A stretch of DNA of 64,000 bases from positions 124,001 to 188,000 of the forward strand of contig NZ_BMPB01000007.1 in the NCBI RefSeq assembly GCF_014647375.1, written 5' to 3'. The stretch is from Parabacteroides faecis (GTDB lineage Bacteria; Bacteroidota; Bacteroidia; Bacteroidales; Tannerellaceae). Positions 2,663 through 62,653 of the stretch are shown piece by piece (position 1 is the first letter of the stretch; each line of letters begins with the position of its first letter). The position numbers and the translations under genes were made by a program. The notes below the pieces were generated by a model that did not search any database, had not been told where the DNA came from, and worked only from the letters and a program-made list of their open reading frames with translations.

Positions 2663-3583
2663 ATGAAAAGTAAAAGTTTAGTTTCTATCGATCAATGTTC
2701 CAAAGAGGACATTCTTCGTATTCTGGATAACGCCAGGAAGTTTGAGGAAAACCCGAACCGAAAGGTGCTGGAAGGCAAAGTTGCTGCCACCCTGTTTTTT
2801 GAACCCTCTACACGCACGCGATTAAGCTTCGAAACAGCTGTCAACCGCCTGGGCGGACGAGTGATCGGATTTCAGGATGCCTCTACGACCAGTTCTTCCA
2901 AAGGGGAAACACTGAAAGATACGATCCTGATGGTCAGCAATTATGTCGACCTGATCATTATGAGACACCATCTGGAAGGTGCAGCACGCTATGCTTCGGA
3001 AGTAACCGATATTCCAATCATCAACGCAGGAGACGGAGCAAACCAGCATCCCTCGCAAACCATGCTCGACCTGTATTCGATCCAAAAGACACAAGGAAAA
3101 CTGACCGACCTGAATATCACAATGGTGGGCGACCTGAAATATGGCCGTACGGTACATTCGCTGATCGTCGGCATGTCGCACTTCAATCCTACTTTTCATT
3201 TCGTGGCTCCGGACGAACTTCGCATGCCGGACGAATACAAGAATTTCTGCGACGAACACGGCATCAAATATTACGAGCATACCACTTTCGACGAAGAGGT
3301 GATCAACCAATCCGATATCCTTTACATGACCCGCGTACAGCGCGAACGCTTTACCGACCTGGAAGAATACGAACGGGTAAAGAATGTGTATATCCTGCGT
3401 AACAAAATGTTGGAAGGAAGCCGCGAAAATCTCCGTATCCTCCACCCGCTGCCCCGCGTAAACGAGATCGCTTACGATGTGGATGATAATCCGAAAGCCT
3501 ACTATATCCAGCAGGCACGCAACGGATTATTTGCCCGTCAGGCTATTATTTGTGAAGTTCTAAATATTTCAGTTGACAAGTGA
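2663..3583 (+). CDS. pyrB: Aspartate carbamoyltransferase catalytic subunit
   Basis: A 306-residue enzyme that condenses carbamoyl phosphate with L-aspartate to N-carbamoyl aspartate, the committed step of pyrimidine synthesis in the cytoplasm. The carbamoyl-phosphate loop STRTRLSFE and the motif HPLPRVNE are intact, and length is normal for the family. I chose ATG 2663 because the in-frame TTG at 2636 overlaps the -7 box. The regulatory subunit gene pyrI follows, so this should form the allosteric dodecamer. An oddity is that the last codons and the TGA stop lie inside the left arm of a 22-bp perfect inverted repeat (3571-3634), so the repeat encodes the C-terminal Val-Asp-Lys. Confidence 0.96.
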
Positions 3584-3634
3584 CAGTTGACAATTGACAG
3601 ATAATAAATAACTGTCAACTGTCACTTGTCAACT
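3571..3634. repeat. Perfect 22-bp inverted repeat, GTTGACA/TGTCAAC family
   Basis: Bases 3571-3592 are the exact reverse complement of 3613-3634, with a 20-base loop. The arms consist of overlapping GTTGACA, GTGACAG and TTGACA words. The repeat spans the pyrB stop and ends 25 bases before pyrI. Closely related sequence recurs at 17018-17067 and 17143-17185. It could fold as a strong RNA hairpin between pyrB and pyrI. Confidence 0.9.
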
Positions 3635-3658
3635 GTCAACTTCTAAATAAACAAAGTT

Positions 3659-17002: not shown

Positions 17003-17032
17003 CAAAGATAGAAAAAAGTTGACAGTTGACAA
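17003..17032 (-). promoter_or_regulatory. Promoter of the first M3 peptidase gene
   Basis: The minus strand has TATCTTTG at 17003-17010 (exact TAnnTTTG). A TTG at 17030-17032 lies 19 bases upstream as a candidate -33 element. That TTG falls inside the GTTGACA-family inverted repeat. Confidence 0.6.
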
Positions 17033-17185
17033 GACAGATGACAGTTGACAGGTGACAGTTGACAGATAAACTTTACGCTTATATATTGTCTCCTATCATT
17101 TGCCAACTGTCAATAATAAATTTAGCCAGTCAACCTAACCGTAACTGTCAACTGTCACTTGTCAACTGTCAACTGTCTTGTCAAC
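17018..17185. repeat. GTTGACA/TGTCAAC inverted repeat between the M3 peptidase genes
   Basis: The left block 17018-17067 has five overlapping TGACAG/GTTGACA words. The right block 17143-17185 carries the complementary CTGTCAAC and TTGTCAAC words and ends at the stop codon of the downstream-coordinate M3 gene. A further TGTCAA word is at 17108-17113. The same words build the inverted repeat at pyrB (3571-3634), so this is a dispersed family. Confidence 0.85.
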
Positions 17186-19308
17186 TATTTCAGTCCCCTG
17201 TTTTTCAGCAACGGCTCGATGCTCGGCTCCTTTCCCCGGAAATTGGTATACATATCCATAGCGTCATCGATACCACCCGGAGTAAGGACATACTGACGGA
17301 ATTTTGCAGCAACTTCTTGATTAAAGATATCACCAGTTTCCTTATAAGCTTCAAAAGCATCGGCATCCAATACTTCCGCCCAGATGTAACTGTAATAACC
17401 GGCAGTATATCCTCCCTCCATCGTATGGCCGAAATAAGTTCCCCAGTAACGAGGTGCTATCTGAGTCGGCAAACCGCGACCATACATCGCTTTCCCTTCA
17501 TATTTCTCAATATCCAGGTCGGCCGGAATTTCTTTCATTACATGGTAATCCATATCCAACAAAGAAGAAGCCAGATATTCTACTGTAGCAAAACCTTGTC
17601 CGTACTTACCACTCTTCACGATCTTATCTACCAGTTCCTGGGGAATAACTTCGCCCGTCTTATAATGTTTGGCATATACTTTCAATACTTCAGGTTCAAA
17701 TGCCCAATGCTCATTGACCTGCGAAGGCAGTTCTACGAAATCGCGAGGGACATCGGCAACGCCATAATAATGAACATCGCCAAACAATGCGTGCAGTGCA
17801 TGACCGAATTCATGGAAAACGGTTTCTGCTTCATCGGTACTCAGCAGGGCAGGTTGTCCGGCTGCCGGTTTACTGAAGTTAAAGACAGTCGTTACCACCG
17901 GAGTGATCTTTTTACCGTCTTTATAAGTCTGCGAACGATAACCGCCACACCATGCTCCGCCACTCTTGCCGGGACGGGTATAGAAGTCCATATACAGAAC
18001 ACCCAACGGAGAACCGTCTTTGTCCTTACATTCGAATGCATAGGCATCGGGATCTGGTTTCGGAATGTCTGTTATTTCTGTAAAGGTGATACCGTACAGT
18101 TTGTTTGCCACATAAAAGGCCCCTTCACGTACATGGTTCAGCTCCAGATACGGACGCACTTCGTTCTCGTCCAGGTCGAACTTTGCCCGACGTGCTTTAT
18201 CGGCATAATAACGCCAGTCCCAGGCTTCAGCCTTGAAGTTGCCACCTTCTTTCTTTATTTCGGCATTGATGTCGGCCAATTCTTCATTTGCCTTTGCCAA
18301 CGCCGGTTTCCAAAGCTGATCCAACAGTTGGTATACATTCTTTTCGTTCTTTGCCATGTTCTCTTCCAGGACGTAAGCGGCAAAGTCTTCGTAACCCAAC
18401 AGTTTGGCCTTTTCGAGACGGGCGGTAACCAGTTTCTTTATTACTTCTTTGTTGTCGTTGGCATTATTGTTATTTCCCCGGCAAACATAGGCATTAAACA
18501 TCTTTTCGCGCAATGCCCGGTTATCTGCATATTGCAGGAAAGGCATTACACTCGGGTTGTGAAGCGTGAAAACCCACTTGCCTTCCATCGAGTCGGCAGT
18601 AGCTGTCTCGGCGGCAGCGGCGATCAGGGTTTCAGGTAAGCCTGAGAGGTCTTCTTTGTTATCGATAACCAATTTAAAAGCATTTGTTTCTTTCAGGGTG
18701 TTCTGTCCGAAGGTCAGTTCCAGTACTGAGATCTGCTCGTTCAGTTCACGCAGTTTAGCCTGCTTGTCGGCATCGAGGTTGGCACCGCTGCGAACAAAAC
18801 CTTTATAGGTTTCTTCCAGTAGCTTCTTTTGTTCCTTATCCAGGTTAAGCGAAGCCTGATTGTCGTAAACAGCTTTCACACGGGCAAAAAGGGCCGGGTT
18901 CAAACTGATATCATCAGAATGGGCAGAGAGAATAGGATACAATTCTTGCTCGAGTTCCTGTATCTCGTCGGTTGTGTTCACACTCGACTGCCCACTGAAA
19001 GCATACATAACTTTATTCAGTAACTCGCCTGCCTGGTCGAGGGCAACGATCGTATTCTCAAAGGTTGGCTTTTCCGAATTATTCACCAGGACATCGATCT
19101 CTTTCTTATGCTCCGCCATTCCCTTCTCGAAAGCCGGTTTATAATGTGCTACTTCTATTTTATCGAAAGGAGGAACACCGAACGGAGTTGTATATTCCGA
19201 GAAAAAAGGATTGGGTGCAGCATCTGCTACATCGCTTTTCTTTGAGGAGTTACAGGCTCCCAAAACTACTGCCAGACTGGCAGCCATAAGCGTTTTATTC
19301 ATAACCAT
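17185..19308 (-). CDS. M3 family peptidyl-dipeptidase, lipoprotein (tandem paralogue)
   Basis: A 707-residue paralogue of the neighbouring M3 enzyme, colinear from lipobox to the C-terminal NRGLK. The lipoprotein signal ends LGACNSS; the start could be the first ATG (19308) or the third codon ATG (19302), and the second gives a more usual signal peptide. The zinc site HEFGH is near residue 500 (ETVFHEFGHALHALF). Both active sites look intact, so this is a duplication without obvious decay. A separate -7 box is at 19359-19366. Expected role is periplasmic peptide breakdown; the substrate difference from its sister is unknown. Confidence 0.93.
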   Translation of the reverse strand: MVMNKTLMAASLAVVLGACNSSKKSDVADAAPNPFFSEYTTPFGVPPFDKIEVAHYKPAFEKGMAEHKKEIDVLVNNSEKPTFENTIVALDQAGELLNKVMYAFSGQSSVNTTDEIQELEQELYPILSAHSDDISLNPALFARVKAVYDNQASLNLDKEQKKLLEETYKGFVRSGANLDADKQAKLRELNEQISVLELTFGQNTLKETNAFKLVIDNKEDLSGLPETLIAAAAETATADSMEGKWVFTLHNPSVMPFLQYADNRALREKMFNAYVCRGNNNNANDNKEVIKKLVTARLEKAKLLGYEDFAAYVLEENMAKNEKNVYQLLDQLWKPALAKANEELADINAEIKKEGGNFKAEAWDWRYYADKARRAKFDLDENEVRPYLELNHVREGAFYVANKLYGITFTEITDIPKPDPDAYAFECKDKDGSPLGVLYMDFYTRPGKSGGAWCGGYRSQTYKDGKKITPVVTTVFNFSKPAAGQPALLSTDEAETVFHEFGHALHALFGDVHYYGVADVPRDFVELPSQVNEHWAFEPEVLKVYAKHYKTGEVIPQELVDKIVKSGKYGQGFATVEYLASSLLDMDYHVMKEIPADLDIEKYEGKAMYGRGLPTQIAPRYWGTYFGHTMEGGYTAGYYSYIWAEVLDADAFEAYKETGDIFNQEVAAKFRQYVLTPGGIDDAMDMYTNFRGKEPSIEPLLKNRGLK

Positions 19309-19415: not shown

Positions 19416-20366
19416 ATGAATAGAATATGTGAATTGTTTGGCATCAAATATCCTATTATACAAGGCGGAATGGTTTGGTGCAGCGGATGGCGGCTTGCTT
19501 CGGCTGTAAGTAACGCCGGAGGACTGGGATTATTGGGAGCCGGCTCTATGCATCCCGAAGTATTACGCGAACATATCCGGAAATGCAAAGCGGCAACCGA
19601 CAAGCCTTTCGGTGTTAATGTTCCGTTGTTGTATCCGGAAATAGATACACTGATGCAACTGATCGTGGAAGAAGGAGTAAAAATAGTCTTTACGTCTGCC
19701 GGAAGTCCGAAGAAATGGACACCTTTTCTGAAAGGGCATGGTATCACCGTCGTGCATGTGGTAAGTAGTTCCGTATTTGCCGTTAAATGCGAAGAGGCCG
19801 GTGTCGATGCTGTCGTTGCCGAAGGTTTTGAAGCCGGAGGTCATAACGGACGTGAAGAGACGACAACACTCTGCCTGATCCCTGCCGTACGCCGTGCTAC
19901 CTCGCTCCCACTGATGGCCGCCGGAGGAATAGGAACCGGTGACGCAATGCTCGCCACTTTCGCCCTCGGTGCGGAAGGCGTACAGATCGGAACACGTTTT
20001 GCCCTGACAACCGAAAGTTCCGCTCACGAGAAATTCAAACAACTCTGCTTCAACCTCAACGAAGGCGATACAAAGTTACTCCTCAAGAAATTGGCTCCTA
20101 CCCGGCTCGCAAAAGGTGATTTCAAAACAGCAGTGGAAGAAGCCGAAGCACAGGGTGCATCTGCAGAAGATATGCGCGCTTTACTAGGCAAAGGAAGAGC
20201 CAAAAAAGGTATGTTCGAAGGTAATCTGGAAGAAGGAGAACTGGAAATCGGACAGGTTGCCGCCTTATTCAGAAAAGAACAGACAGTTAGTGAAGTGATG
20301 GCAGAACTTGTTGCCGATTATCGTAAAGCACTTGCCGGATTGAACAACGAAGCAAATCTTTTCTAA
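19416..20366 (+). CDS. NPD/FabK-type flavin-dependent oxidoreductase (nitronate monooxygenase or enoyl-ACP reductase II)
   Basis: A 316-residue FMN TIM-barrel protein. The N-terminus IKYPIIQGGMVWCSG, the block VSNAGGLGLLGAG, the central VAEGFEAGGHNG with its conserved His (about residue 144) and the phosphate site MAAGGIGTGDAMLATFALGAEGVQIGTRF are all typical. Nitronate monooxygenases and FabK share this architecture; FabK would reduce enoyl-ACP in fatty acid synthesis. I cannot separate the two functions from sequence alone, and no other fatty acid genes are adjacent. The gene is divergent from the second M3 peptidase. Confidence 0.85.
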   Translation: MNRICELFGIKYPIIQGGMVWCSGWRLASAVSNAGGLGLLGAGSMHPEVLREHIRKCKAATDKPFGVNVPLLYPEIDTLMQLIVEEGVKIVFTSAGSPKKWTPFLKGHGITVVHVVSSSVFAVKCEEAGVDAVVAEGFEAGGHNGREETTTLCLIPAVRRATSLPLMAAGGIGTGDAMLATFALGAEGVQIGTRFALTTESSAHEKFKQLCFNLNEGDTKLLLKKLAPTRLAKGDFKTAVEEAEAQGASAEDMRALLGKGRAKKGMFEGNLEEGELEIGQVAALFRKEQTVSEVMAELVADYRKALAGLNNEANLF

Positions 20367-20399
20367 CCGAGCATCCGGTGTCCTGATAATTTCCTCGTT

Positions 20400-20505
20400 A
20401 GGAAATTGGAGTTTCTTGCCTGGGAAACGCCAGTTCCCTGCCGAGGAAATCACAGTTCCCCGCGCAGGAAACTACAGTTTCCTTATTAAAAAAATTTAGG
20501 AAACT
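20400..20505. repeat. 22-bp tandem hairpin array, arms GGAAA/TTTCC
   Basis: GGAAA begins at 20401, 20423, 20445 and 20467, an exact 22-bp period. Each unit is GGAAA-N6-TTYCY-N6, and the fourth is a perfect 18-bp stem-loop (20466-20483) followed by T/A-rich sequence. A fifth GGAAACT is at 20499. It lies in the 182-bp gap between convergent genes. Confidence 0.88.
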
Positions 20506-20548: not shown

Positions 20549-22570
20549 TCACTTTATTTTCCCTTGAAAGTCTGTATTTTCGACCAGCCATTGCAGGTTA
20601 AACCGATAATGATTCCGGCTACTCAACAGATGGATAATCTGATTCGGTGTCTGTGTCGCTGCCAGATAACCGCGAGGTTCGGCATGCGTCTGATCCATAT
20701 CGAAGAAACCTGTCCAGGCGCCTCCATCCATGAAACGACTTTTACCGTCTGTCAGTAACTTTTTTACGGGCCATGTTTTTCCTTCGTCAAAAGAAAGGGC
20801 AGCATACATTCCATACCCTGTATATTCCCGTCCGTTTTTATCTTTAAAGGTCATTCCGTTCAATCCGTTCTTCAGGCGGAAAGGATGGTTCGTAAAAGAG
20901 ACCAGTAAAAGAGGACCTTCTTTCAACCGCATCAATACCAGGCGCTGACCGCCGTCTATCGGAGGAAACTCCGAAGCACTATATGTCCAGGTACGACCAT
21001 TATCTTCCGACAGGCTCATAGGCATACGTTCCAGACCGTCTTTATCGACAATGCCGTCACCACGCCCCAAAGCCATAAGACGACCGTCTGACAGTTGTAC
21101 TACACCAGCATGAATTCCGGCAATGGTTCCACCCGAAGCACCGGCTTCGAAAGTTCCGGGATTGGTCTTTCCCATATCTTCCCAGGTCAGACCGTTATCT
21201 TTACTGAGATGCAAGGCAGTACCTCCATTACTCCGGGGTGTTGCATCAGCGGCTTGTATCAGCCAACCCTCTTTCGTTTTAGAGGAGCCTGCTATTACCT
21301 GATGGCGACGGGCATGTTCCGGGGCAACAAGATGGGGGCGACTCCAGGTGGCTCCGTTATCTTTACTGGTACGCATCACCATAGCCAGTGTTTCCCAGGT
21401 CCCGGCAGCCTCCACTCCATTCATATGAATCAGTGTCCCATCATTATTCAGGAGAGACGAGCCTGTCACATTCCGGTCGGGGACTCTAAAGAATTCACGC
21501 GGTTCGCTCCATTCAGCAGTACCTTGTTTCAGACGGCTTTCCAAAATAACCATTTCCCTACCCGACTCCTCGTCACAAGTGAACCAGATTGCCAATAAAT
21601 CGCCGTTATCACACCAACTGACAGCCGGACAATGGTTATGCTTATAAAACGGGACACCCGAAGAACAGTCCGGAGTTTTTACATAAACGAGAGGCTCAGC
21701 AAAGAACGGGGTTTTCAACGGAGTTCCCCAATTATATTTTTGTTGGGAAATATTTTCCTGCGAAGCAGGTTCGATAGCAGGTAAAGGCCGGGTTTGCGGC
21801 ATATCAGCCTGGACAACCCGGAATCCGGTCAACCAATGTTTATCTTCCGGAATCATTGCCAGACGGTTGGCGGAGCGCAGAAATCGTTCCGGCGTACTAT
21901 GGCTTCCACCACGCGTTACTTTATATAATCCGTCAGCACGCCCCACAGGGTCTGTCTGCGGAAAAGCCTCGTAAGGTCCGTACCAGTCGCAGCACCATTC
22001 CTCTACATTTCCGTGCATATCGTACAAGCCGAAAGGATTGGCCGGTGTTTTGCCGACCTTTAGATTGATAGTCGAATCAGTTCCCCATACATTCTGCTGA
22101 TTTTTATGATAAACAGCATGTAGTCCGTCATCCATCCAAAAGTTCCAGTAGGAACCGGCACGACAGGCATATTCCCATTCGGCTTCAGTCGGCAGGCGAT
22201 ATGTTTTTCCTTCCTTTTCCGAAAGCCATTTACAGAAGGCTTCCGCTTCCCGGTAATTGACGAAGATCACAGCTTCGTCGTCTTCTTTTGAAAGACCGTA
22301 TTTTCCCCGTAATTCTTTATGGGAAGGATCGAATTGTTCGTACTGGGCGTTTGTCACTTCAGTTGTTCCCATCAGGAAAGGTTTTGTGATCGTTACCGGA
22401 TGGATCGGGGCTTCATCGTAGTCCTCTCCCTGTCCGTGGCTTCCCATATGGAAAGACCCTGCCGGAATCCGGGCAAATTGCATTCCCAGACTATTCGTTT
22501 CCTGTGCGTTAATAGTAAAGGCACCTAATGCTATCAGGCAGTAACATAAGATTGTAGCGTTTCTCATCAT
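20549..22570 (-). CDS. Secreted SUMF1-like domain fused to a BNR sialidase-like domain
   Basis: A 673-residue exported protein (signal peptide to about residue 22). Residues 25-255 are a formylglycine-generating-enzyme-like domain with IPAGSFHMGS, LPTEAEWEYACRAG, GLYDMHGNVEEWC, RGGSHSTPERFLRSANR and GFRVV. The catalytic cysteines that true sulfatase activators carry after RGGS are absent, so this domain is probably structural or binding. Residues 290-670 form a sialidase-type beta-propeller with four Asp boxes, SxDxGxTW, near 401, 455, 522 and 597. It may hydrolyse or bind a glycan at the cell surface or in the periplasm; sialidase activity is not certain. It is next to aldA on the same strand but 144 bp away with a terminator between. 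Confidence 0.85.
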   Translation of the reverse strand: MMRNATILCYCLIALGAFTINAQETNSLGMQFARIPAGSFHMGSHGQGEDYDEAPIHPVTITKPFLMGTTEVTNAQYEQFDPSHKELRGKYGLSKEDDEAVIFVNYREAEAFCKWLSEKEGKTYRLPTEAEWEYACRAGSYWNFWMDDGLHAVYHKNQQNVWGTDSTINLKVGKTPANPFGLYDMHGNVEEWCCDWYGPYEAFPQTDPVGRADGLYKVTRGGSHSTPERFLRSANRLAMIPEDKHWLTGFRVVQADMPQTRPLPAIEPASQENISQQKYNWGTPLKTPFFAEPLVYVKTPDCSSGVPFYKHNHCPAVSWCDNGDLLAIWFTCDEESGREMVILESRLKQGTAEWSEPREFFRVPDRNVTGSSLLNNDGTLIHMNGVEAAGTWETLAMVMRTSKDNGATWSRPHLVAPEHARRHQVIAGSSKTKEGWLIQAADATPRSNGGTALHLSKDNGLTWEDMGKTNPGTFEAGASGGTIAGIHAGVVQLSDGRLMALGRGDGIVDKDGLERMPMSLSEDNGRTWTYSASEFPPIDGGQRLVLMRLKEGPLLLVSFTNHPFRLKNGLNGMTFKDKNGREYTGYGMYAALSFDEGKTWPVKKLLTDGKSRFMDGGAWTGFFDMDQTHAEPRGYLAATQTPNQIIHLLSSRNHYRFNLQWLVENTDFQGKIK

Positions 22571-28700: not shown

Positions 28701-29263
28701 AAAGGAAAAGCCGTATGAGAAGAACGCCCGCCATCAGGGCGCATATACAGGTTCTCACCCGAAGTCAATTCTTTCAAACGGGGAGCAAAATCTGCTTTGG
28801 ACGGAAAACTTCCATTCGCATAATGCAAACGAAAGTTGCCCGGCCGGTCATACCGGAAAACGATATCGGAAACACAGACATTCGCTATCTCAGGGGTATT
28901 TCCGGATCCGGTATTCGTAAAATGAAGTACCCATTCTACAGCTTGTGAGTCTGTAAAACCTTTTACATCACAATCAACCTTCAGACCGCTCGCAGGGTCC
29001 TGATAGGTATAGCAATATCTGACTTCATGCTGATCGTCGCTTTTCAGGGGTTTAGCCGAATATGCCCAATCTTTGATAAATTCTTTGGATGGCTTTCCTC
29101 CGTATTCGAATGAAAAAGGAGGAACAGTTCCTTGTGCAAAATGCGAGGATATCCAATGTTCCACATCGGTCGGCCGACTATCCATCGACGCAATTGTTTG
29201 CCCTATACATATATATGGATATATAATCAGGGCAACCACAAAATAAAATAATTTTTTTCTCAT
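25787..29263 (-). CDS. Two-enzyme fusion: GH36-like alpha-galactosidase plus clan GH-A-like glycosidase
   Basis: A 1158-residue exported protein (signal peptide to about residue 21). Residues 30-690 match the neighbouring 708-residue GH36-like enzyme along its length: VFWLDAGWYDQ, the likely nucleophile Asp in YYRQDFNIEP (about 438), CASGGRR and the acid/base Asp in WRTDYSYGE (about 507). Residues 720-1158 are a second hydrolase, a TIM barrel of the clan A type with the acid/base Glu in TPVNEPDW (about 850), a nucleophile Glu in VGEFGG (about 956) and a C-terminal beta-sandwich. The second domain resembles GH5, GH30 or GH39 members; I cannot fix the family. The protein could remove alpha-galactosyl branches and cut the backbone together. 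Its ATG overlaps the upstream GH36 stop (ATGA). Confidence 0.85.
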   Translation of the reverse strand: MRKKLFYFVVALIIYPYICIGQTIASMDSRPTDVEHWISSHFAQGTVPPFSFEYGGKPSKEFIKDWAYSAKPLKSDDQHEVRYCYTYQDPASGLKVDCDVKGFTDSQAVEWVLHFTNTGSGNTPEIANVCVSDIVFRYDRPGNFRLHYANGSFPSKADFAPRLKELTSGENLYMRPDGGRSSHTAFPFFNIESPSGQGVMVAIGWTGTWFSDVRCTDAQSIQLKSGIERLKAYLYPKETIRTSSVCLLFWQGNDRMIGHNQFRRFILAHHTRKVDGKPAQYPFCKGFNYGDPSPCNEYTCLTADYAIALVKRYKQFKLLPEVFWLDAGWYDQSADVANNKNWANTVGNWTVDSVRFPEGLKPIADEIHKVGSKFMVWFEPERVYYGSAWAIEHPEYMLERPGADACLVNLGNPKACRWMSEYIGDFIEENNIDYYRQDFNIEPAGFWEANDEPGRQGICEIKYIEGLYAFWDYLLERFPNLLIDNCASGGRRLDLETTTRSAPLWRTDYSYGEPDGYQCHTYGLNFYLPLHGTGAWGVDKYTCRSSLSSAVTFNWKITEAGVSIYDMRDRQAEFEELRPYFLEDYYPLSGIDNTTAENTWLAYQLYRKSDDSGYIVAFRRKECPDKDCRVELSGVNPDKTYLLINKDTGDSIRKTGKELSEGLTLTLNEPRSSMIIRYQSDLSEPVHDLVVGEKTDAVLQAIGAEFDPHFLSQNVTRNDGAKEKDWKNIIEKRIKDMDIHRLRVMVLPQWYEPENDNDDPGLINWDKFTFNSPEMQSLYRELDLAQQQQMEVTLTLWGAPDKHFLAGCNSGNWVVAPESNEEWSENFSALIQYLIKEKKYTCIKEITPVNEPDWSFLVNGKRASTAKYIEMCKALDRRFKKDGIRELVDFSLSDNSDGGIGTHKYLAACTRELADVADVFNSHTYIFGYETPNSTILDWERQNYELSKSAGKPHFVGEFGGNQCVGAARQKDINLYERGVLMVRIAINLLNAGASGVSYWSLIDQYYGKNDSYEGMQQLGLWKYVKNAYAQDTCYENMTVDYEVRPQYFAYSLLTRFIRPGAEVYPISTPDEFYVGTAIKNKDGKWVYIFANGTAQEKKIKISNKYVGAKGTYEVYKYAQNALPKGDKQISPEKRVMKGGNEFFYTLPINSVILLREK

Positions 29264-31386
29264 TTCTTTATAGTATTAACAGGTTCATATTTCAATAAAA
29301 GGGAAGAGCGAGGGTTCTCCAGCTCAAGCATCAATCCGTCAGTTAATTCCTTTCCTGACATATTGAGTACTTTACCGGTATCCATATTTGTAATTTTATA
29401 TTCCTTTTTGGGAGTTACTCCCCGGAGGTTCACATTGATTCTATTCTCTCCGCACTCAGGACGCCTGAAAGCAACAATGATTCCACTGCCATCCGACGGA
29501 CAGTGTAACTGATAAGCTATCCAAATATTCAGAGGGGTAATATCTCCCGTTCCTGTCAATGGATAATAATCTTCATAATAATAAGGCCGGATTTCATGGA
29601 ACTCTTTCAAGCATTGTTGCATTTCCGGTATGGATGCCTGGGTATTTGTTACTTTCCAATTATAGATAAGGGCGGAACTCATGCTGGAACGGAAAGAATA
29701 CTTATCCGTATTAAGGCTTCCCGTACCATGTATAGGTAAGAAAAATTCAAGTCCGTACGTCTGGTTCTGCAGTCCGTCCGTATCATAATAATGATAATAA
29801 TCACTCCTCCATAAAGGTGCGCTTCTGCCCGTAGTCTCCCAATCGATTCTCCGTCCACCGCTAGCACAGTTGTCGATCAGAAGATTTGGGAAACGTTCCA
29901 ACAAATAATCCCAGAAACGATACAGACCTTCTACATACCGGATCTCTTTCATGCCGATACGTCCGGGTTCATCGTTTGCTTCCCAATAATCAGCCGGTTC
30001 TATATTGCAATCTTGCCGGTAATAATCTATGCCATTCTTTTCAAGCATATCACCGATATACTTCGATAACCATTCACAAGCCTCCGGATTTCCTAAATCA
30101 AATAAAAGCCAGGTATTATCTTCCCGGTTCGGATCTCCCTGCATCGTTTTTTCAAGCATCCATTCAGGGTATTCCACGGCCCATTGGGTTCCTCTTACAA
30201 CCCGTTCAGGTTCAAACCAAACCATAAATTTAGTCCCGACCTGATGTATCACATCTGCTACAGGCCGTAAACCTTCCGGAAAACGCAGGGTATCGATAGT
30301 CCAGTTTCCTGTCGTATTAGCCCACGATTTTCCATGTTCAAAATCAGACGCATCCGTATGCCAGCCCGCATCCAACCAGAACACTTCCGGTTTCAATCCA
30401 AACTGGATATATCTCTTTACCATAGCTATCGCGTAATCACTCGCAATGCAGGAATATTCCCCGCAAGGAGAAGGATCCCGGTAATTAAATCCGCTGGATA
30501 GTGGATATTCAGCCAATTTTCCATTGATCTTCCGGCTGTTATGTGCCAAAATGAAACGTCTGAACTGATTATGTCCATCCATCCGGTCTTTACTTTCCCA
30601 AAACATGAGGCTGACACTCGGAGTACGGATACTTTCATCCGGATATAAATATAAATTCATTCTTTTCATACCGGCGGCCATAGCCACTGTATTCTTATCC
30701 TTCGCAGAAATATTTGCCTGCCAGGTTCCGGTCCATCCGACACTCATAACCACTCCCTGACTTGCCGGTGACTCTATATTAAAAAACGGCAAATAATCTC
30801 CCTGGGAAGAACGTCCTCCTTCCGGACTCATTCGTTTCATTTCGCCTGTAACCAATTCTATGGAGCGGGGATGGAAATCGTATTTGGAAATATGACTGCC
30901 ATCTGAATAATGAAGGTGAAAAGCCCCTTCCGCAGGATATTGTATGGATAAATCACATACATTTACATCTGTTATCTCTCGTGAATTTTCCGGACTTTTA
31001 TTCGTGAAGTTCAGAACCCATTCCACGCCATGATAATCCGAATATCCTTTCACATTACATATGACTGATAATCCATTAGTCGGATTTATATATGTGAATA
31101 TGTATTCGACTACATCCGGTTCGTCTACAGTCAGTTTCTCTGCCGAATACTTCCATTGTTCAATAAAGCTCTCTGACGGCTGTCCATCATAAACGAAAGA
31201 AAAAGGAGGTATTTTCCCTTCGGCAAAGTGCTCTTCGATCCATTGCTCTATACCGGGTAAGTGCTTCGACATTCTGACAGTAGTTTGCCCCACTACACTA
31301 AAACAACCTGTATATATCAGTAATAATGACAGCAATATTTTCCAACTATATGCTATACCTTTTAACTTGAATTGCCTGTTCTCCAT
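29260..31386 (-). CDS. GH36-like alpha-galactosidase, exported
   Basis: A 708-residue enzyme predicted to hydrolyse terminal alpha-galactosides in the periplasm. A signal peptide region covers about residues 12-33. The beta-sandwich N-domain (40-300) is followed by the catalytic barrel with VFWLDAGWHTD, MVWFEPERV, the likely nucleophile Asp in YYRQDCNIEP (about 458), LLIDNCASGGRR and the acid/base Asp in WRSDYYHY (about 528). It is a full-length paralogue of the N-terminal part of the next gene. It starts 231 bases after susD, with a stem-loop and a 22-bp repeat array in between, and is translationally coupled to the fusion gene. An alpha-N-acetylgalactosaminidase role is a less likely alternative. 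Confidence 0.87.
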   Translation of the reverse strand: MENRQFKLKGIAYSWKILLSLLLIYTGCFSVVGQTTVRMSKHLPGIEQWIEEHFAEGKIPPFSFVYDGQPSESFIEQWKYSAEKLTVDEPDVVEYIFTYINPTNGLSVICNVKGYSDYHGVEWVLNFTNKSPENSREITDVNVCDLSIQYPAEGAFHLHYSDGSHISKYDFHPRSIELVTGEMKRMSPEGGRSSQGDYLPFFNIESPASQGVVMSVGWTGTWQANISAKDKNTVAMAAGMKRMNLYLYPDESIRTPSVSLMFWESKDRMDGHNQFRRFILAHNSRKINGKLAEYPLSSGFNYRDPSPCGEYSCIASDYAIAMVKRYIQFGLKPEVFWLDAGWHTDASDFEHGKSWANTTGNWTIDTLRFPEGLRPVADVIHQVGTKFMVWFEPERVVRGTQWAVEYPEWMLEKTMQGDPNREDNTWLLFDLGNPEACEWLSKYIGDMLEKNGIDYYRQDCNIEPADYWEANDEPGRIGMKEIRYVEGLYRFWDYLLERFPNLLIDNCASGGRRIDWETTGRSAPLWRSDYYHYYDTDGLQNQTYGLEFFLPIHGTGSLNTDKYSFRSSMSSALIYNWKVTNTQASIPEMQQCLKEFHEIRPYYYEDYYPLTGTGDITPLNIWIAYQLHCPSDGSGIIVAFRRPECGENRINVNLRGVTPKKEYKITNMDTGKVLNMSGKELTDGLMLELENPRSSLLLKYEPVNTIKK

Positions 31387-31474: not shown

Positions 31475-31562
31475 TTGTCCAATTATTTCATCCCTATGAA
31501 ACAGTTGTTTCTCTAAGGTGAAACTATTGTTTCATTCTAATGAAACACATATTCCATTTGAA
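31475..31562. repeat. 22-bp tandem hairpin array, arms TGAAAC/GTTTCA
   Basis: TGAAAC begins at 31497, 31519 and 31541, an exact 22-bp period. Units read TGAAAC-N4-GTTTCW-N6; a weaker unit precedes at 31475, and the unit at 31541 has a degenerate right arm (ATTCCA). It lies in the susD-GH36 intergenic gap, so it is probably transcribed. Confidence 0.82.
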
Positions 31563-31572
31563 ACTACAGCAA

Positions 31573-31617: not shown

Positions 31618-33483
31618 TTAATACCCCGGATTCTCCACCAAATTCGGATTAGCAGAAGTACGGCCATGCCCGATAGGCAAATAATAATTCTTTTCAGGGA
31701 AAGTCGGTGTTTGCGGTCTTCCGTCGATATCATCGACAAAATCCAAACGATACTTTCCACTGGCTGCATCATAGATATACCGTAAACCGGAATATGTACG
31801 TGTAAGAGCTGTAACGGCAGTTCTCCAACGTCTTAAGTCCCAATAACGATGGTTCTCGAAAACTAATTCTACTTTTCTTTCATGATGTATCTTTTCCCGG
31901 TCGATAGAAGTTAATTTGGCAATTCCAGCACGTTCACGAATCTGATTGACAGCGTCCAACGCATCACTGGTTCTACCCAGTTCAAACGCTGCTTCTGCAT
32001 AATTCAATAAAACCTCACCGAAGCGGAAAATCAGATAATCGGTTGTCGACTCACTGAACCAGTTCATATTATTTGCCGTTGGATCAAGGTATTTCATTAC
32101 ACCGAACCCTGTATTAGTACAGCTAAGCTCTTTAAAACGTGTCAGCTGATCTCCGATTGCAGCAACACCCTCGTAGGAATCATAACGCCCGTCGATCAGT
32201 GTTCCATCTTTCGAAATGATGCCATTATGCATGTCTATTGTATTCTCACCCAATACACCACCTACAGCATCCGGCCATGAGGTTCCATTCGTCCAGATAG
32301 AAGCAGCGAACCGGGGATCTTTATTCCCCCATAATTCCTCCATCGTCCACAGACGGTTTTTTGCATATGCCCGGTCAATCTTACCAGGAGTGCCGTCTAT
32401 ATATTCGAATTCTTCCGCCATATCCAGATAAGGACCATGATAGTTACCGACACCCCAGACATTCGGACGAGGACATTCCGTCATATCCCATGACCATCTG
32501 TTCTTTCCGCCATCCGAAGCACTTGGACCGGTATGTTGCTTTACCATAATTGCTTCACAATTACCTTTTTTCAAAAATATATTCTTAAAGTTCTCCACTT
32601 TATCTGCATCCGCATTATAAAGGGCATACGGGCTTTCACTCATGATCTTCTTACTGGCATCATAACAAATCTGATAATACAGTGAAGCCTCTCCATTAGG
32701 AAAACCCAATAATCCGTCCAGTTGTACCGAACCAAATTGAGCGATGCTTCCTGCGTATAATGCAGCTCTGCTTCGAAGAGCTAATGCAGCCCATTTATTG
32801 GCACGCCCCGCATCCGTAGCAGAAGGAAGGATTTCAGATATTTCATCTGTCTCTTTCAGGATGAAGTCGTACAATTCTTTTTCCGTATTACGTTTCGGAT
32901 ACAATGCAGTGGAATCCGCATCGATAGACTGGACCTCAGTAATCAAAGGTACTCCTCCATAACGTTTTACCATTGCGAAATAACAAAATGCCCTTAAAAA
33001 ACGAGCTTCAGCAATTCGCTCATTCACATTCGAAATAGAGGACTCAGCTGCACGCTCAATAAAGTCATTCAAATTCCGAATGGTATAATAAGCATTTCCC
33101 CACCACTGCATCTGAGTAGAGTTTACCTGAAATCCGTTATCTTTTATATCGAGCATATGAGCTTGTGCCCCGAAATTATACTTTGCCTCATCTGTAATTT
33201 CGAGCATTCTGACAGTACCTTCCATCTGCTCACTGTATCCCATAACGGTTCCCCAATCATTACCATCACGATTCATAGGCGAACTGTCATATAAACATGT
33301 CGCATCATTAATCATCACCGGCGTACAAGCATAAAGCTCTGCCAGATACATATCAAGTAATGCAGGATCATTCCATACTACAGCATCCGTATACCGATCG
33401 GTCGGAACTTTGTCCAATACATCATAACACGACGTCATTGTCGCAGCCAAAGCGACTATTGCTATATTTAATTTCGTTTTCAT
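31618..33483 (-). CDS. RagB/SusD-family glycan-binding lipoprotein
   Basis: A 621-residue surface lipoprotein that captures the oligosaccharide and closes the lid over its SusC partner. The signal peptide ends MTSC-Y (Cys19). The TPR-containing SusD fold is shown by the N-terminal block YDVLDKVPTDRYT, RFLRAFCYFAMVKRYGGVPLI (about 145-165) and the C-terminal block ERKVELVFENHRYWDLRRW (about 540-560), all hallmarks of the family. The gene follows susC by 11 bases. The specificity cannot be read from the sequence. Confidence 0.95.
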   Translation of the reverse strand: MKTKLNIAIVALAATMTSCYDVLDKVPTDRYTDAVVWNDPALLDMYLAELYACTPVMINDATCLYDSSPMNRDGNDWGTVMGYSEQMEGTVRMLEITDEAKYNFGAQAHMLDIKDNGFQVNSTQMQWWGNAYYTIRNLNDFIERAAESSISNVNERIAEARFLRAFCYFAMVKRYGGVPLITEVQSIDADSTALYPKRNTEKELYDFILKETDEISEILPSATDAGRANKWAALALRSRAALYAGSIAQFGSVQLDGLLGFPNGEASLYYQICYDASKKIMSESPYALYNADADKVENFKNIFLKKGNCEAIMVKQHTGPSASDGGKNRWSWDMTECPRPNVWGVGNYHGPYLDMAEEFEYIDGTPGKIDRAYAKNRLWTMEELWGNKDPRFAASIWTNGTSWPDAVGGVLGENTIDMHNGIISKDGTLIDGRYDSYEGVAAIGDQLTRFKELSCTNTGFGVMKYLDPTANNMNWFSESTTDYLIFRFGEVLLNYAEAAFELGRTSDALDAVNQIRERAGIAKLTSIDREKIHHERKVELVFENHRYWDLRRWRTAVTALTRTYSGLRYIYDAASGKYRLDFVDDIDGRPQTPTFPEKNYYLPIGHGRTSANPNLVENPGY

Positions 33484-60192: not shown

Positions 60193-61755
60193 TCACCACC
60201 AGAACCAATAGAATGCGACCAATATAGCTATCACGACCAACGACAGGATATTGAACAGGCGGCTCGTATGGAATAATCCGGGCCGATGCGTCGTATAGGC
60301 ATTTTCCATCGGCTTACGGCTACCCAGTAGGATGATCAATCCGCAACAGAGGAAGAAAACGATCATCATACGATCCATCCACGGTAAACCGGGACAGAGG
60401 AACTTCATCAACGTAGAGAATACAAACGATCCGAAAGCAGCCGCTAATGCTCCGTTTGCCGTCGCCCGTTTATAGAAGAACCCAGCCAGGAAGATCGACA
60501 AAGCACCCGGACTGATAAATCCGGTGAACTCCTGAATATACTGGAACGCCTGATCCAGTCCCGACAACATCGGTGCGATCAATACGGCAACCAGCAACGA
60601 CCCAAAACTCGCCCATCTTCCAGTCTTTACCAATTCATGCTGCCCGGCTTCCTTCCTGAAAAAGGACTTATAAATATCCATTGTAAAGATAGTGGATATA
60701 CTGTTCATCATCGAAGCCAGCGAACTGACAATCGCCGCCGTCAACGCCGCAAAAGCAATCCCTTTCACTCCTACCGGAAGCAGGTTGCTGAGTAGCCAGG
60801 GATAAGCCTCGTCCGACTTTTCCAACGGAGCATTCAAAGCAAACGCAGCAATCCCCGGTATCACGACCAGCAACGGAACCAACAGTTTGATAAACCCGGC
60901 AAACAACATACCGTTCTGCGCCTCTCCCACCGACTTGGCAGCCAAAGCCCGTTGAATAATATATTGGTTGCATCCCCAGTAATACAGGTTTGCCACCCAC
61001 AGTCCACCGAGAATAACAGAGATACCGGGCAAGTCTTTGTAGCTCGGATGCGATTTATCGAGGATCAGATGAAACTTATCTTCTGCCTGTGCATACAGGT
61101 TCGTGACACCCTGCCATACTCCCTCACCAGCTCCCAGCAAGTCCAAGGCAATATAAGTCGTTATCAGTCCGCCTCCAATAAGGAAGATCACCTGAATGAC
61201 ATCAGTCAAAGCAACCGCTTTCAATCCTCCGTAGATAGAGTAGATACCGGCAAAGGCGGCCAGCCCGACTACCCCCCAAAACAGAGGAATACCCATGACC
61301 TTCTCGATCGTCAGTGCTCCGAGATACAGTATGGAAGTCAGGTTGATAAAGATAAAAACCGCCAGCCAGAAGACAGCCATGACCGTCTTCACCCGCTTAT
61401 CGAACCGCTCTTCCAGGAACTGCGGCATCGTGAATATCTTCTTTTCCAGAAATATCGGAATAAAGTATTTGGCTACGATAATCAATCCCAATGCGGCGAT
61501 CCATTCATAAGTAGCCATTGCCAGCCCGATCGCATACCCGGAGCCGGACATACCGACAAACTGTTCGGCAGAGATGTTCGACGCAATGATCGAAGCACCG
61601 ATCGCCCACCAAGCAAGTCCGCGTCCGGCAAGGAAATAATCGCCGGCATCCCGTTCTTCGCCTTTCTTCTTTCGTGAGACAAACAATCCTACGAAGAGGA
61701 TCAGGGCACAGTAAGCAATAAAAACAATCAGATCTATTGTGTTCATGGTATTCAT
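60193..61755 (-). CDS. Sodium:solute symporter (SGLT-like)
   Basis: A 520-residue inner membrane protein with about 14 helices of the SSS family. Typical blocks are SRKKKGEERDAGDYFLAGRGLAWWAIGASIIASNISAEQFVGMSGSGYAIGLAMATYEW at the start, and AAIVSSLASMMNSISTIFTMDIYK (about 340-365) with the sodium-binding serines. It probably imports the sugar or sugar acid made by the operon with sodium. It lies 35 bases before the GH2 gene and 106 after the SDR gene, with a 22-bp repeat array in the latter gap. Confidence 0.92.
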   Translation of the reverse strand: MNTMNTIDLIVFIAYCALILFVGLFVSRKKKGEERDAGDYFLAGRGLAWWAIGASIIASNISAEQFVGMSGSGYAIGLAMATYEWIAALGLIIVAKYFIPIFLEKKIFTMPQFLEERFDKRVKTVMAVFWLAVFIFINLTSILYLGALTIEKVMGIPLFWGVVGLAAFAGIYSIYGGLKAVALTDVIQVIFLIGGGLITTYIALDLLGAGEGVWQGVTNLYAQAEDKFHLILDKSHPSYKDLPGISVILGGLWVANLYYWGCNQYIIQRALAAKSVGEAQNGMLFAGFIKLLVPLLVVIPGIAAFALNAPLEKSDEAYPWLLSNLLPVGVKGIAFAALTAAIVSSLASMMNSISTIFTMDIYKSFFRKEAGQHELVKTGRWASFGSLLVAVLIAPMLSGLDQAFQYIQEFTGFISPGALSIFLAGFFYKRATANGALAAAFGSFVFSTLMKFLCPGLPWMDRMMIVFFLCCGLIILLGSRKPMENAYTTHRPGLFHTSRLFNILSLVVIAILVAFYWFWW

Positions 61756-61774
61756 ATTCGTTATCTAATTCTTT

Positions 61775-61862
61775 TGCCATGCCTTTGGCAGAATACTGCC
61801 ACTACGATGGCAGAGCTCTGCCAAAGGTATGGCAGGGTTCTGCCATCGTAGTGGCAAAACCC
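61775..61862. repeat. 22-bp tandem hairpin array, arms TGCCA/TGGCA
   Basis: TGCCA begins at 61775, 61797, 61819 and 61841: an exact 22-bp period. Every unit reads TGCCA-N6-TGGCA-N6. The N6 loops are TGCCTT, CTACGA, AAGGTA and TCGTAG. Loop 2 is the exact complement of loop 4 and loop 1 nearly that of loop 3, giving an 18-bp long stem (61797-61814 with 61839-61856). It fills the SDR-symporter gap. Confidence 0.9.
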
Positions 61863-62653
61863 TATTCATCTTGCATCAGAGCCGACCGGCCACCGTCCAT
61901 CAGGATCGTTGTCCCACTAATGAAACGCGCCATAGGCGATGCAAGATAGACACAGAGGTCACCCACCTCCTCTACTGTCCCGATCCGTTTGACCGGATGC
62001 AGGTTGATCGTACGTAAACGCTCTTCCCGGGCATCCGGAAAAGAGTCGAACCAGGTATCGTTGCCCGCCGTATCGATGAAGCCCGGAGCGACACCGACCG
62101 TACGGATAGCAGGCCCCCACTCGATCGCCAGGTTACGGACCAGGCCGGTGATCGCCGTTTTCGTCACGCTATACGGAAAGCATCCGGGAATCGTTCCGAA
62201 CGCATGGTTGGAAGTCATCAACAGGATAACGCCTTCCCCACTCTGTTCCAGATAGGGTTTGCATAGCTTCGACAACCGCCAGTGGGATGCCAGGTTCAGA
62301 TCCAGGTTATACTGCCAGCGTTCTTCCGTACACCCGGCTGCACCCTCGAATACATTCATTCCCGCACTGGAGACCAGAATATCCAACCGCCCGAAAGTAC
62401 GGATCGTTTCCTCCACCAGCTGCCCCAGTTGTTCGGGACAAGTGACGTCGGTCTGCACATACAGCGACCGGACTCCCTGTGACTCGACAGCCTCCCGGAA
62501 TGCGGCTGCCGACGGATCATCCGCCGCTTTTCGTGCACATCCGGCGACATGAGCACCCGCCCGGGCAAACTCCCGGGCAGTACCCAGACCGATACCGGAA
62601 GATACACCGGTAACAAGTACCACTTTATCTTTATAGTCTATCGTAAAGCTCAT
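61862..62653 (-). CDS. Short-chain dehydrogenase/reductase (sugar dehydrogenase-like)
   Basis: A 263-residue cytoplasmic oxidoreductase. The NAD(P)-binding motif is VTGVSSGIGLGTAREF (about 14-29), the catalytic Ser and YxxxK are in MTSNHAFGTIPGCFPYSVTK (about 147-166), and GGRSALM closes the C-terminus. Asp-type acceptor residues after the second strand are absent (GCARKA), so NADP use is possible. It is 5 bases after the dehydratase-like gene, so it is in one operon. In this context it would oxidise an aldose to a lactone or reduce a keto-acid; I cannot choose. Confidence 0.87.
   Translation of the reverse strand: MSFTIDYKDKVVLVTGVSSGIGLGTAREFARAGAHVAGCARKAADDPSAAAFREAVESQGVRSLYVQTDVTCPEQLGQLVEETIRTFGRLDILVSSAGMNVFEGAAGCTEERWQYNLDLNLASHWRLSKLCKPYLEQSGEGVILLMTSNHAFGTIPGCFPYSVTKTAITGLVRNLAIEWGPAIRTVGVAPGFIDTAGNDTWFDSFPDAREERLRTINLHPVKRIGTVEEVGDLCVYLASPMARFISGTTILMDGGRSALMQDE

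Follow-up and report, generated by a model that had tools for sequence, protein, structure and literature searches.

The question raised by this locus is what kind of element is formed by a row of short inverted repeats lying between two convergent genes, and whether its 22-bp geometry can persist while the letters that build it are exchanged. We analyzed the whole 64-kb stretch of DNA around it (the window), related genomes, and shuffled sequences. Direct reading confirmed the GGAAA words described in an earlier note at 20401, 20423, 20445, and 20467, each with a partner TTYCY 6 bases on; the array begins with the letters TTTCC at 20390, and a longer variant unit closes it near 20504. Two further arrays with a 22-bp period, as the note had proposed, were located at 31486-31567, after a SusD-family gene, and at 61772-61859, directly after a dehydrogenase gene (Table 1). 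The arms had been called entirely different; this is correct for array 3, whose TGCCA/TGGCA arms are unrelated to the rest, but not for arrays 1 and 2: the arm core of both is GTTTC/GAAAC, and the outermost base is the sole difference. The ends of array 3 read TTTTGCCA and TGGCAAAA, with little beyond its own arms. Tandem Repeats Finder (TRF) reported period 22 in the window at 20423-20483 and 31480-31547, and array 3 is not among the TRF repeats of the window. Predicted folding z-scores of the three arrays range from -3.3 to -10.5 on both strands, and no Rfam match at the gathering score was found in the 64 kb. The window also carries tandem heptamers (AGTTGAC/AACTGTC) in facing orientations at 3570-3641 and 17017-17186.

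Table 1. Arrays, array units, and neighboring genes of the window (position 1 is its first letter)
Feature	Position	Strand	Description	Basis or setting
Array 1	20390..20504	.	Four 22-bp units TTYCY-N6-GGAAA plus a long variant unit	Sequence, dispersed relatives, orthologues
Array 1 units	20390-20405, 20412-20427, 20434-20449, 20456-20471		TTYCY-N6-GGAAA
Array 1 long variant unit	20478-20504		TTTCC-N16-GGAAAC
Array 2	31486..31567	.	Three units TTTCW-N6-TGAAA plus a decayed fourth	Sequence, dispersed relatives
Array 2 units	31486-31501, 31508-31523, 31530-31545		TTTCW-N6-TGAAA
Array 3	61772..61859	.	Four units TGCCA-N6-TGGCA	Sequence, relatives without the array at the site, core changes
Nitronate monooxygenase-family gene	19416..20366	+	PF03060, E 4.3e-63	Ends 23 bp before array 1
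FGE-sulfatase plus BNR-repeat protein gene	20549..22570	-	PF03781, PF13088	Convergent toward array 1
Melibiase-like gene	29260..31386	-	PF02065	Downstream of array 2
SusD-family gene	31618..33483	-	PF07980	Ends ~50 bp before array 2
Sodium:solute symporter gene	60193..61755	-	PF00474	Downstream of array 3
Short-chain dehydrogenase gene	61862..62653	-	PF13561	Stop adjoins array 3

The period of these rows is sharp. Our scan disregarded the identity of the arms and asked for three successive units whose left arms agree and whose right arms are the reverse complement of the left, in any letters. We ran it on 864 kb of own-genome DNA that contained the window, with arms of 5, three units, up to 4 mismatches, and periods from 14 to 60; it returned 24 arrays at period 22, with 4 at 21, 2 at 23, 7 at 44, 4 at 33, and no more than 3 at each remaining period. 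Five Markov shuffles of the same DNA gave 0, 1, 0, 0, and 1 at period 22, and with 5 mismatches allowed the count was 29 versus 0, 3, 0, 0, and 1; a genome scan against shuffled controls, which the note had suggested, thus places period-22 arrays far above the shuffles. Eighty loci from other genomes (1.42 Mb, periods 16 to 49, up to 4 mismatches) behaved alike: 39 arrays at 22, 9 at 21, 5 at 23, 10 at 44, 8 at 42, 4 at 32, and at most 2 elsewhere, with none at period 22 in three shuffles. The pooled scan (3.47 Mb of Parabacteroides and relatives, at most 3 mismatches) yielded 69 at 22, 16 at 21, 8 at 23, and no more than 3 at each remaining period between 14 and 69. Here an array with a period outside 21-23 entered the count only when it was free of overlap with any array of period 21-23, a rule that removes harmonics and favors 22. 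In agreement with this, TRF found 66 at period 22, 20 at 14, 19 at 21, 14 at 12, and 9 at 23 with at least 2.5 copies, and at most 8 at each remaining period up to 60; the second commonest period, 14, may or may not correspond to the heptamer repeats of the window. The consensus was at least 70% palindromic in 27 of the 66, so under half of the 22-bp tandem repeats reach the palindrome threshold. The unit has two dyad axes 11 bp apart, and most arrays hold 2 to 5 good units, with a maximum of 8. Such rows are spread more widely than first noticed, and Parabacteroides and its relatives in the gut have many of them. For the 6.66-Mb own genome, the 27 arrays counted in 1.064 Mb extrapolate to roughly 170.

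The geometry is shared by arrays of very different lettering. Among 88 arrays we counted 51 five-base arm words, some of them shifted readings of one another, and within most arrays the arms are constant and the cores variable, which together with the sharp period bears out the proposal that geometry is conserved while arms are alike within an array and vary between arrays. Because the letters differ, the arrays are largely hidden from homology searches. One lettering was followed with a free-gap GTTTC/GAAAC pattern (periods 15 to 30 allowed, last gap fixed at 8), which occurred in 4 of the 5 genomes of the order group of the window, own genome included, and in none of 144 others of the class; its reversed control gave 0. 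Among the 35 distinct places listed, 33 have period 22, one has 21, and one has 23, although some places share one array and the list covers 13 of 33 places for genome G125 and 13 of 14 forward places for the own genome. Seven further Bacteroidota genomes, totaling 400 kb, had no array at period 22, and neither did 50 kb of Escherichia coli taken as a control. Exact two-unit GTTTC matches occurred in 4 viral contigs, with no three-unit array found in the viral stretches covered, and array 1 had no match in plasmid or phage records. Among named organisms, Parabacteroides goldsteinii is the one closest to the window (92% identity in one protein).

All three window families are dispersed in the own genome, where searches returned 12 rows for array 1, 10 for array 2, and 8 for array 3, each including the array itself and some being one place counted on both strands. 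Sequence similarity between dispersed copies mostly stops no more than about 50 bp from the detected array; for copies of the three window arrays, compared with 200-bp flanks, it stops within about 25 bp, and no longer shared element was found in those flanks. With similarity stopping so close to the array, most copies do not look like decayed IS ends, which makes it less likely that the arrays are decayed copies of one IS end, the outcome named in the earlier note as a refutation. Three loci (L011, L013, and L018) have longer common flanks. The GTTTCA arrays of these loci, that of L018 being the same place as L199 at about 2050-2260, sit inside a longer dispersed repeat; by eye, no transposase is present in the ORFs beside the array of L199 or L013, and L011 has an integrase-like ORF about 290 bp from its array.

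Mobilization of REP/BIME-type elements by a Y1 HUH (RAYT) transposase would suit arrays that are palindromic, intergenic, and dispersed, and PMC6006769 describes a Bacteroidetes subclass of TnpAREP that has atypical secondary structures on its flanks, with further copies at other places in the genome. We nevertheless consider this origin very improbable: Y1_Tnp matches appear in only 9 of 39 genomes of the genus, genome G004 has none although the 280 kb sampled from it, including 16 kb in runs of N, contain 11 arrays, and the single Y1_Tnp copy of the own genome has no such array in the surrounding 3.3 kb. Since Y1 genes do not track the arrays, RAYT-driven REPs were rejected. The locus with this only own Y1_Tnp match (L237, about 1350-1850) has hairpin copies with GTCAGTT/AACTGAC arms on both flanks.

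Location was examined for 81 arrays in 3.07 Mb with a simple in-house gene caller. Two arrays fall inside called genes, 37 in tandem gaps, 21 in convergent gaps, 16 in gaps called divergent, a class that may include missed genes, and 5 at sequence edges, so that 79 of the 81 lie outside called genes while called coding sequence makes up 88% of the DNA. Density per kb is 0.52 in convergent, 0.21 in tandem, and 0.16 in divergent gaps. In tandem gaps, 26 of the 37 arrays are closer to the stop of the upstream gene (p 0.02), and the final fifth of the gap contains none of them. REP/BIME elements, too, are often found near gene ends. Of 80 loci with the NMO gene, 47 were examined downstream of it, and 5 of these had a period-22 array (at most 5 arm mismatches) within 230 bp, a recurrence that we judge to be no more than gene-end enrichment could give.

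This distribution, with the highest density between convergent genes and a bias toward the upstream stop, and the strong predicted folds would be expected of RNA elements in the sense transcript, acting at transcript ends as intrinsic terminators or 3' stabilizers. The strand-specific evidence makes that rather unlikely. In the 37 tandem arrays, the sense strand has 89 G-T and 91 A-C pairs, giving no sign that sense RNA is the selected strand, and sense-RNA hairpins under G-U-tolerant selection were rejected on these counts; in the five edge arrays, the two counts are uneven (6 and 19). Runs of T5 in the sense strand number 15 and runs of A5 number 19. Terminator-like sites occur in 8 of 79 array/strand cases versus 98 of 823 ordinary gene ends used as controls; with hairpin plus T-run not enriched, intrinsic terminators were rejected. 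Moreover, 16 of the 81 arrays are in gaps called divergent, and at L199 a terminator-like hairpin with a T-run, read by eye, stands before the array. Together, the equal G-T and A-C counts, the lack of enrichment in T-runs or terminator sites, and the absence of Rfam matches lean toward a structure at the DNA level or one that is neutral to the strand.

The feature that is new here is an above-chance complementarity between the cores of next-but-one units (i and i+2). We defined the core as the 6 bases at whichever dyad axis varies more and a match as a reverse complement at 5 or 6 of 6 positions, and we compared cores in 81 arrays (63 in a discovery set and 18 in a replication set), after leaving aside 7 of 70 first-set arrays with the axis on a base and units with more than 2 arm mismatches; the arm-quality filter was added after a first look. 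Array 3 illustrates the pattern, with cores TGCCTT, CTACGA, AAGGTA, and TCGTAG, of which 1 and 3 (5/6) and 2 and 4 (6/6) are complementary. Matching cores were found in 18/113 pairs at distance 2, compared to 8/174 at distance 1, 2/56 at distance 3, and 1/24 at distance 4; in the first set without the arm filter, the values were 18/170 at distance 2, 9/224 at 1, 4/108 at 3, and 5/57 at 4. Complement-only and reverse-only controls at distance 2 gave 0/113. When cores were permuted within arrays, 9.05 matches were expected at distance 2 versus the 18 observed (0 of 3,000 permutations as high), and 15.2 between neighbors versus 8 observed. The discovery set alone gave 14 versus 6.9 (p = 0.0006) and the replication set alone gave 4 versus 2.2 (p = 0.12, not significant), so the signal is carried mostly by the set in which it was first noticed; the arrays are also not fully independent, as some are paralogues and array 1 of the window and L067 are orthologues. 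The excess suggests folding. Loop-loop pairing and an extended duplex between i and i+2 are indistinguishable in this test because the arms are complementary by construction.

Direct core copies are frequent too (17/113 at distance 2, as common as inverted ones, and 25/174 at distance 1, where they are commoner), and so duplication also shapes the arrays. They could even be a mutational by-product, palindromic minisatellites generated by slippage and template switching and tolerated between genes, which would fit core copies that are both direct and inverted as well as the exclusion from coding DNA. Comparison between species adds to this. Array 1 is common to the own genome and P. goldsteinii (L067), has one unit fewer, exactly 22 bp, in genome G038, and is replaced in the same gap of G009 by four GTTTCW units, that is, by other arms. 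Array 3 is present in the own genome (G000), G038, and G013 and absent at the orthologous site in G009, G014, G015, G021, and G026, where 8 to 31 bp separate the matching flanks versus about 111 in the own genome; the exact junctions are too diverged for a target duplication to be visible. Between the own genome and G013, array 3 differs at 10/24 core, 4/18 linker, 0/40 arm, and 5/119 flank positions, and the core changes (0, 3, 1, and 6 for cores 1 to 4) cluster in cores 2 and 4, whose pairing in the own genome and G038 is not kept in G013. The unit loss in G038, the clustered changes, and the near-identical units of some arrays (L122 and L125) all speak for such a by-product. Even so, we regard a purely mutational origin as unlikely, since it leaves a single period across unrelated arms unexplained, and snap-back copying should leave linkers as complementary as cores. 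No such excess was seen: linkers averaged 2.46 of 6 complementary bases in 13 core-matching triplets versus 2.96 in 69 others. L122 (2697-2908) and L125 (3374-3606) are Bacteroides GTTTC arrays with near-identical cores and a unit number that differs between the loci, likely reflecting recent expansion.

A length of 22 bp is about two helical turns. Iteron-like arrays, with a protein dimer on each dyad on the same DNA face two turns apart, would therefore account for the period and for dyad axes 11 bp apart, as well as for arms that are constant and spacers that are free within an array and for arm words that recur across species (GTTTC/GAAAC). However, 51 arm words in 88 arrays would call for many proteins, and complementarity between i and i+2 cores is not predicted, which leaves protein binding quite unlikely.

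The reading we favor, at somewhat less than an even chance, is that these are short dispersed noncoding intergenic repeats of 22-bp inverted-repeat units that work as a folded strand. The strand, more likely DNA or either strand than sense mRNA, would form a row of small hairpins with a 5- to 6-bp stem, a loop of about 6 nt, and a linker of 4 to 6 nt, and each loop could pair with the loop of the next hairpin but one. Selection, or a copying process, may keep this geometry and pairing and not the letters. The cellular role is the weakest step; by analogy with BIMEs and BrickBuilt, the arrays most likely act, or are simply tolerated, as structured spacers at gene ends. More tentatively, they could represent a geometry-first repeat class, in which what is maintained is the hairpin module of 22 bp together with the pairing of each loop with the next but one, and the arm letters are exchangeable, so that one gene junction can carry different sequences across species. 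If geometry and loop pairing are indeed maintained, the arrays would be a structural feature found commonly in these chromosomes; should they be mutational instead, they would reveal a copying process with a 22-bp ruler.

The order Bacteroidales includes Porphyromonas gingivalis. We file the arrays among dispersed intergenic palindromic minisatellites, for which BrickBuilt is the best comparison. PMC4596501 presents BrickBuilt (also cited in PMC5771137) as a 23-nt minisatellite MITE of P. gingivalis that forms a single sequence family; the unit is repeated 1 to 22.8 times, and the element has a leader and a tail segment and, in many copies, small terminal inverted repeats. Both elements occur in Bacteroidales. 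The features that BrickBuilt, so described, has in common with the arrays are a dispersed, intergenic location (always intergenic for BrickBuilt; the arrays outside called genes include the 5 at edges), a tandem unit of short length, long stem-loops by prediction, the lack of an Rfam match, a copy number that differs between strains, and variable positions within the unit. They are set apart by the same description: its unit is 23 nt versus 22 in the window, where period 23 accounts for only 8 of 93 arrays of 21-23; a leader and tail with terminal inverted repeats are lacking in the window arrays, and homology among the arrays mostly stops near the array; and it is one sequence family, versus many arm words. 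The statement of the earlier note that no named element behaves in this way needs qualification, then, because BrickBuilt is a named relative in kind, yet the window arrays differ from it in unit length and in leader and tail. In the literature we searched, and for that search alone, no prior description of these 22-bp multi-arm arrays was found. REP/BIME elements (GTAG and CGTC repeats in the portion of PMC3733652 concerned) are likewise extragenic and palindromic but are sequence-tagged and tied to RAYT genes, whereas the arms of the arrays vary and Y1 genes do not follow them. PINSR of Prevotella intermedia is also an intergenic lineage-specific repeat from a related genus, but the account of it in PMC4755523 gives a 188-bp single consensus, with no description there as a 22-bp array. 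PMC4596501 also mentions that P. gingivalis W83 has tandem repeats of 22 and of 41 nt; by this mention, the former have the same 22-nt period in a related organism, and the latter recall a 41-bp palindromic array in G013. At the site of own array C8:68297, where G009 keeps the 22-bp array, G013 has six TCAG-N6-CTGA palindromes exactly 41 bp apart (L301, G013:C2:103500-104500, at 418-640).
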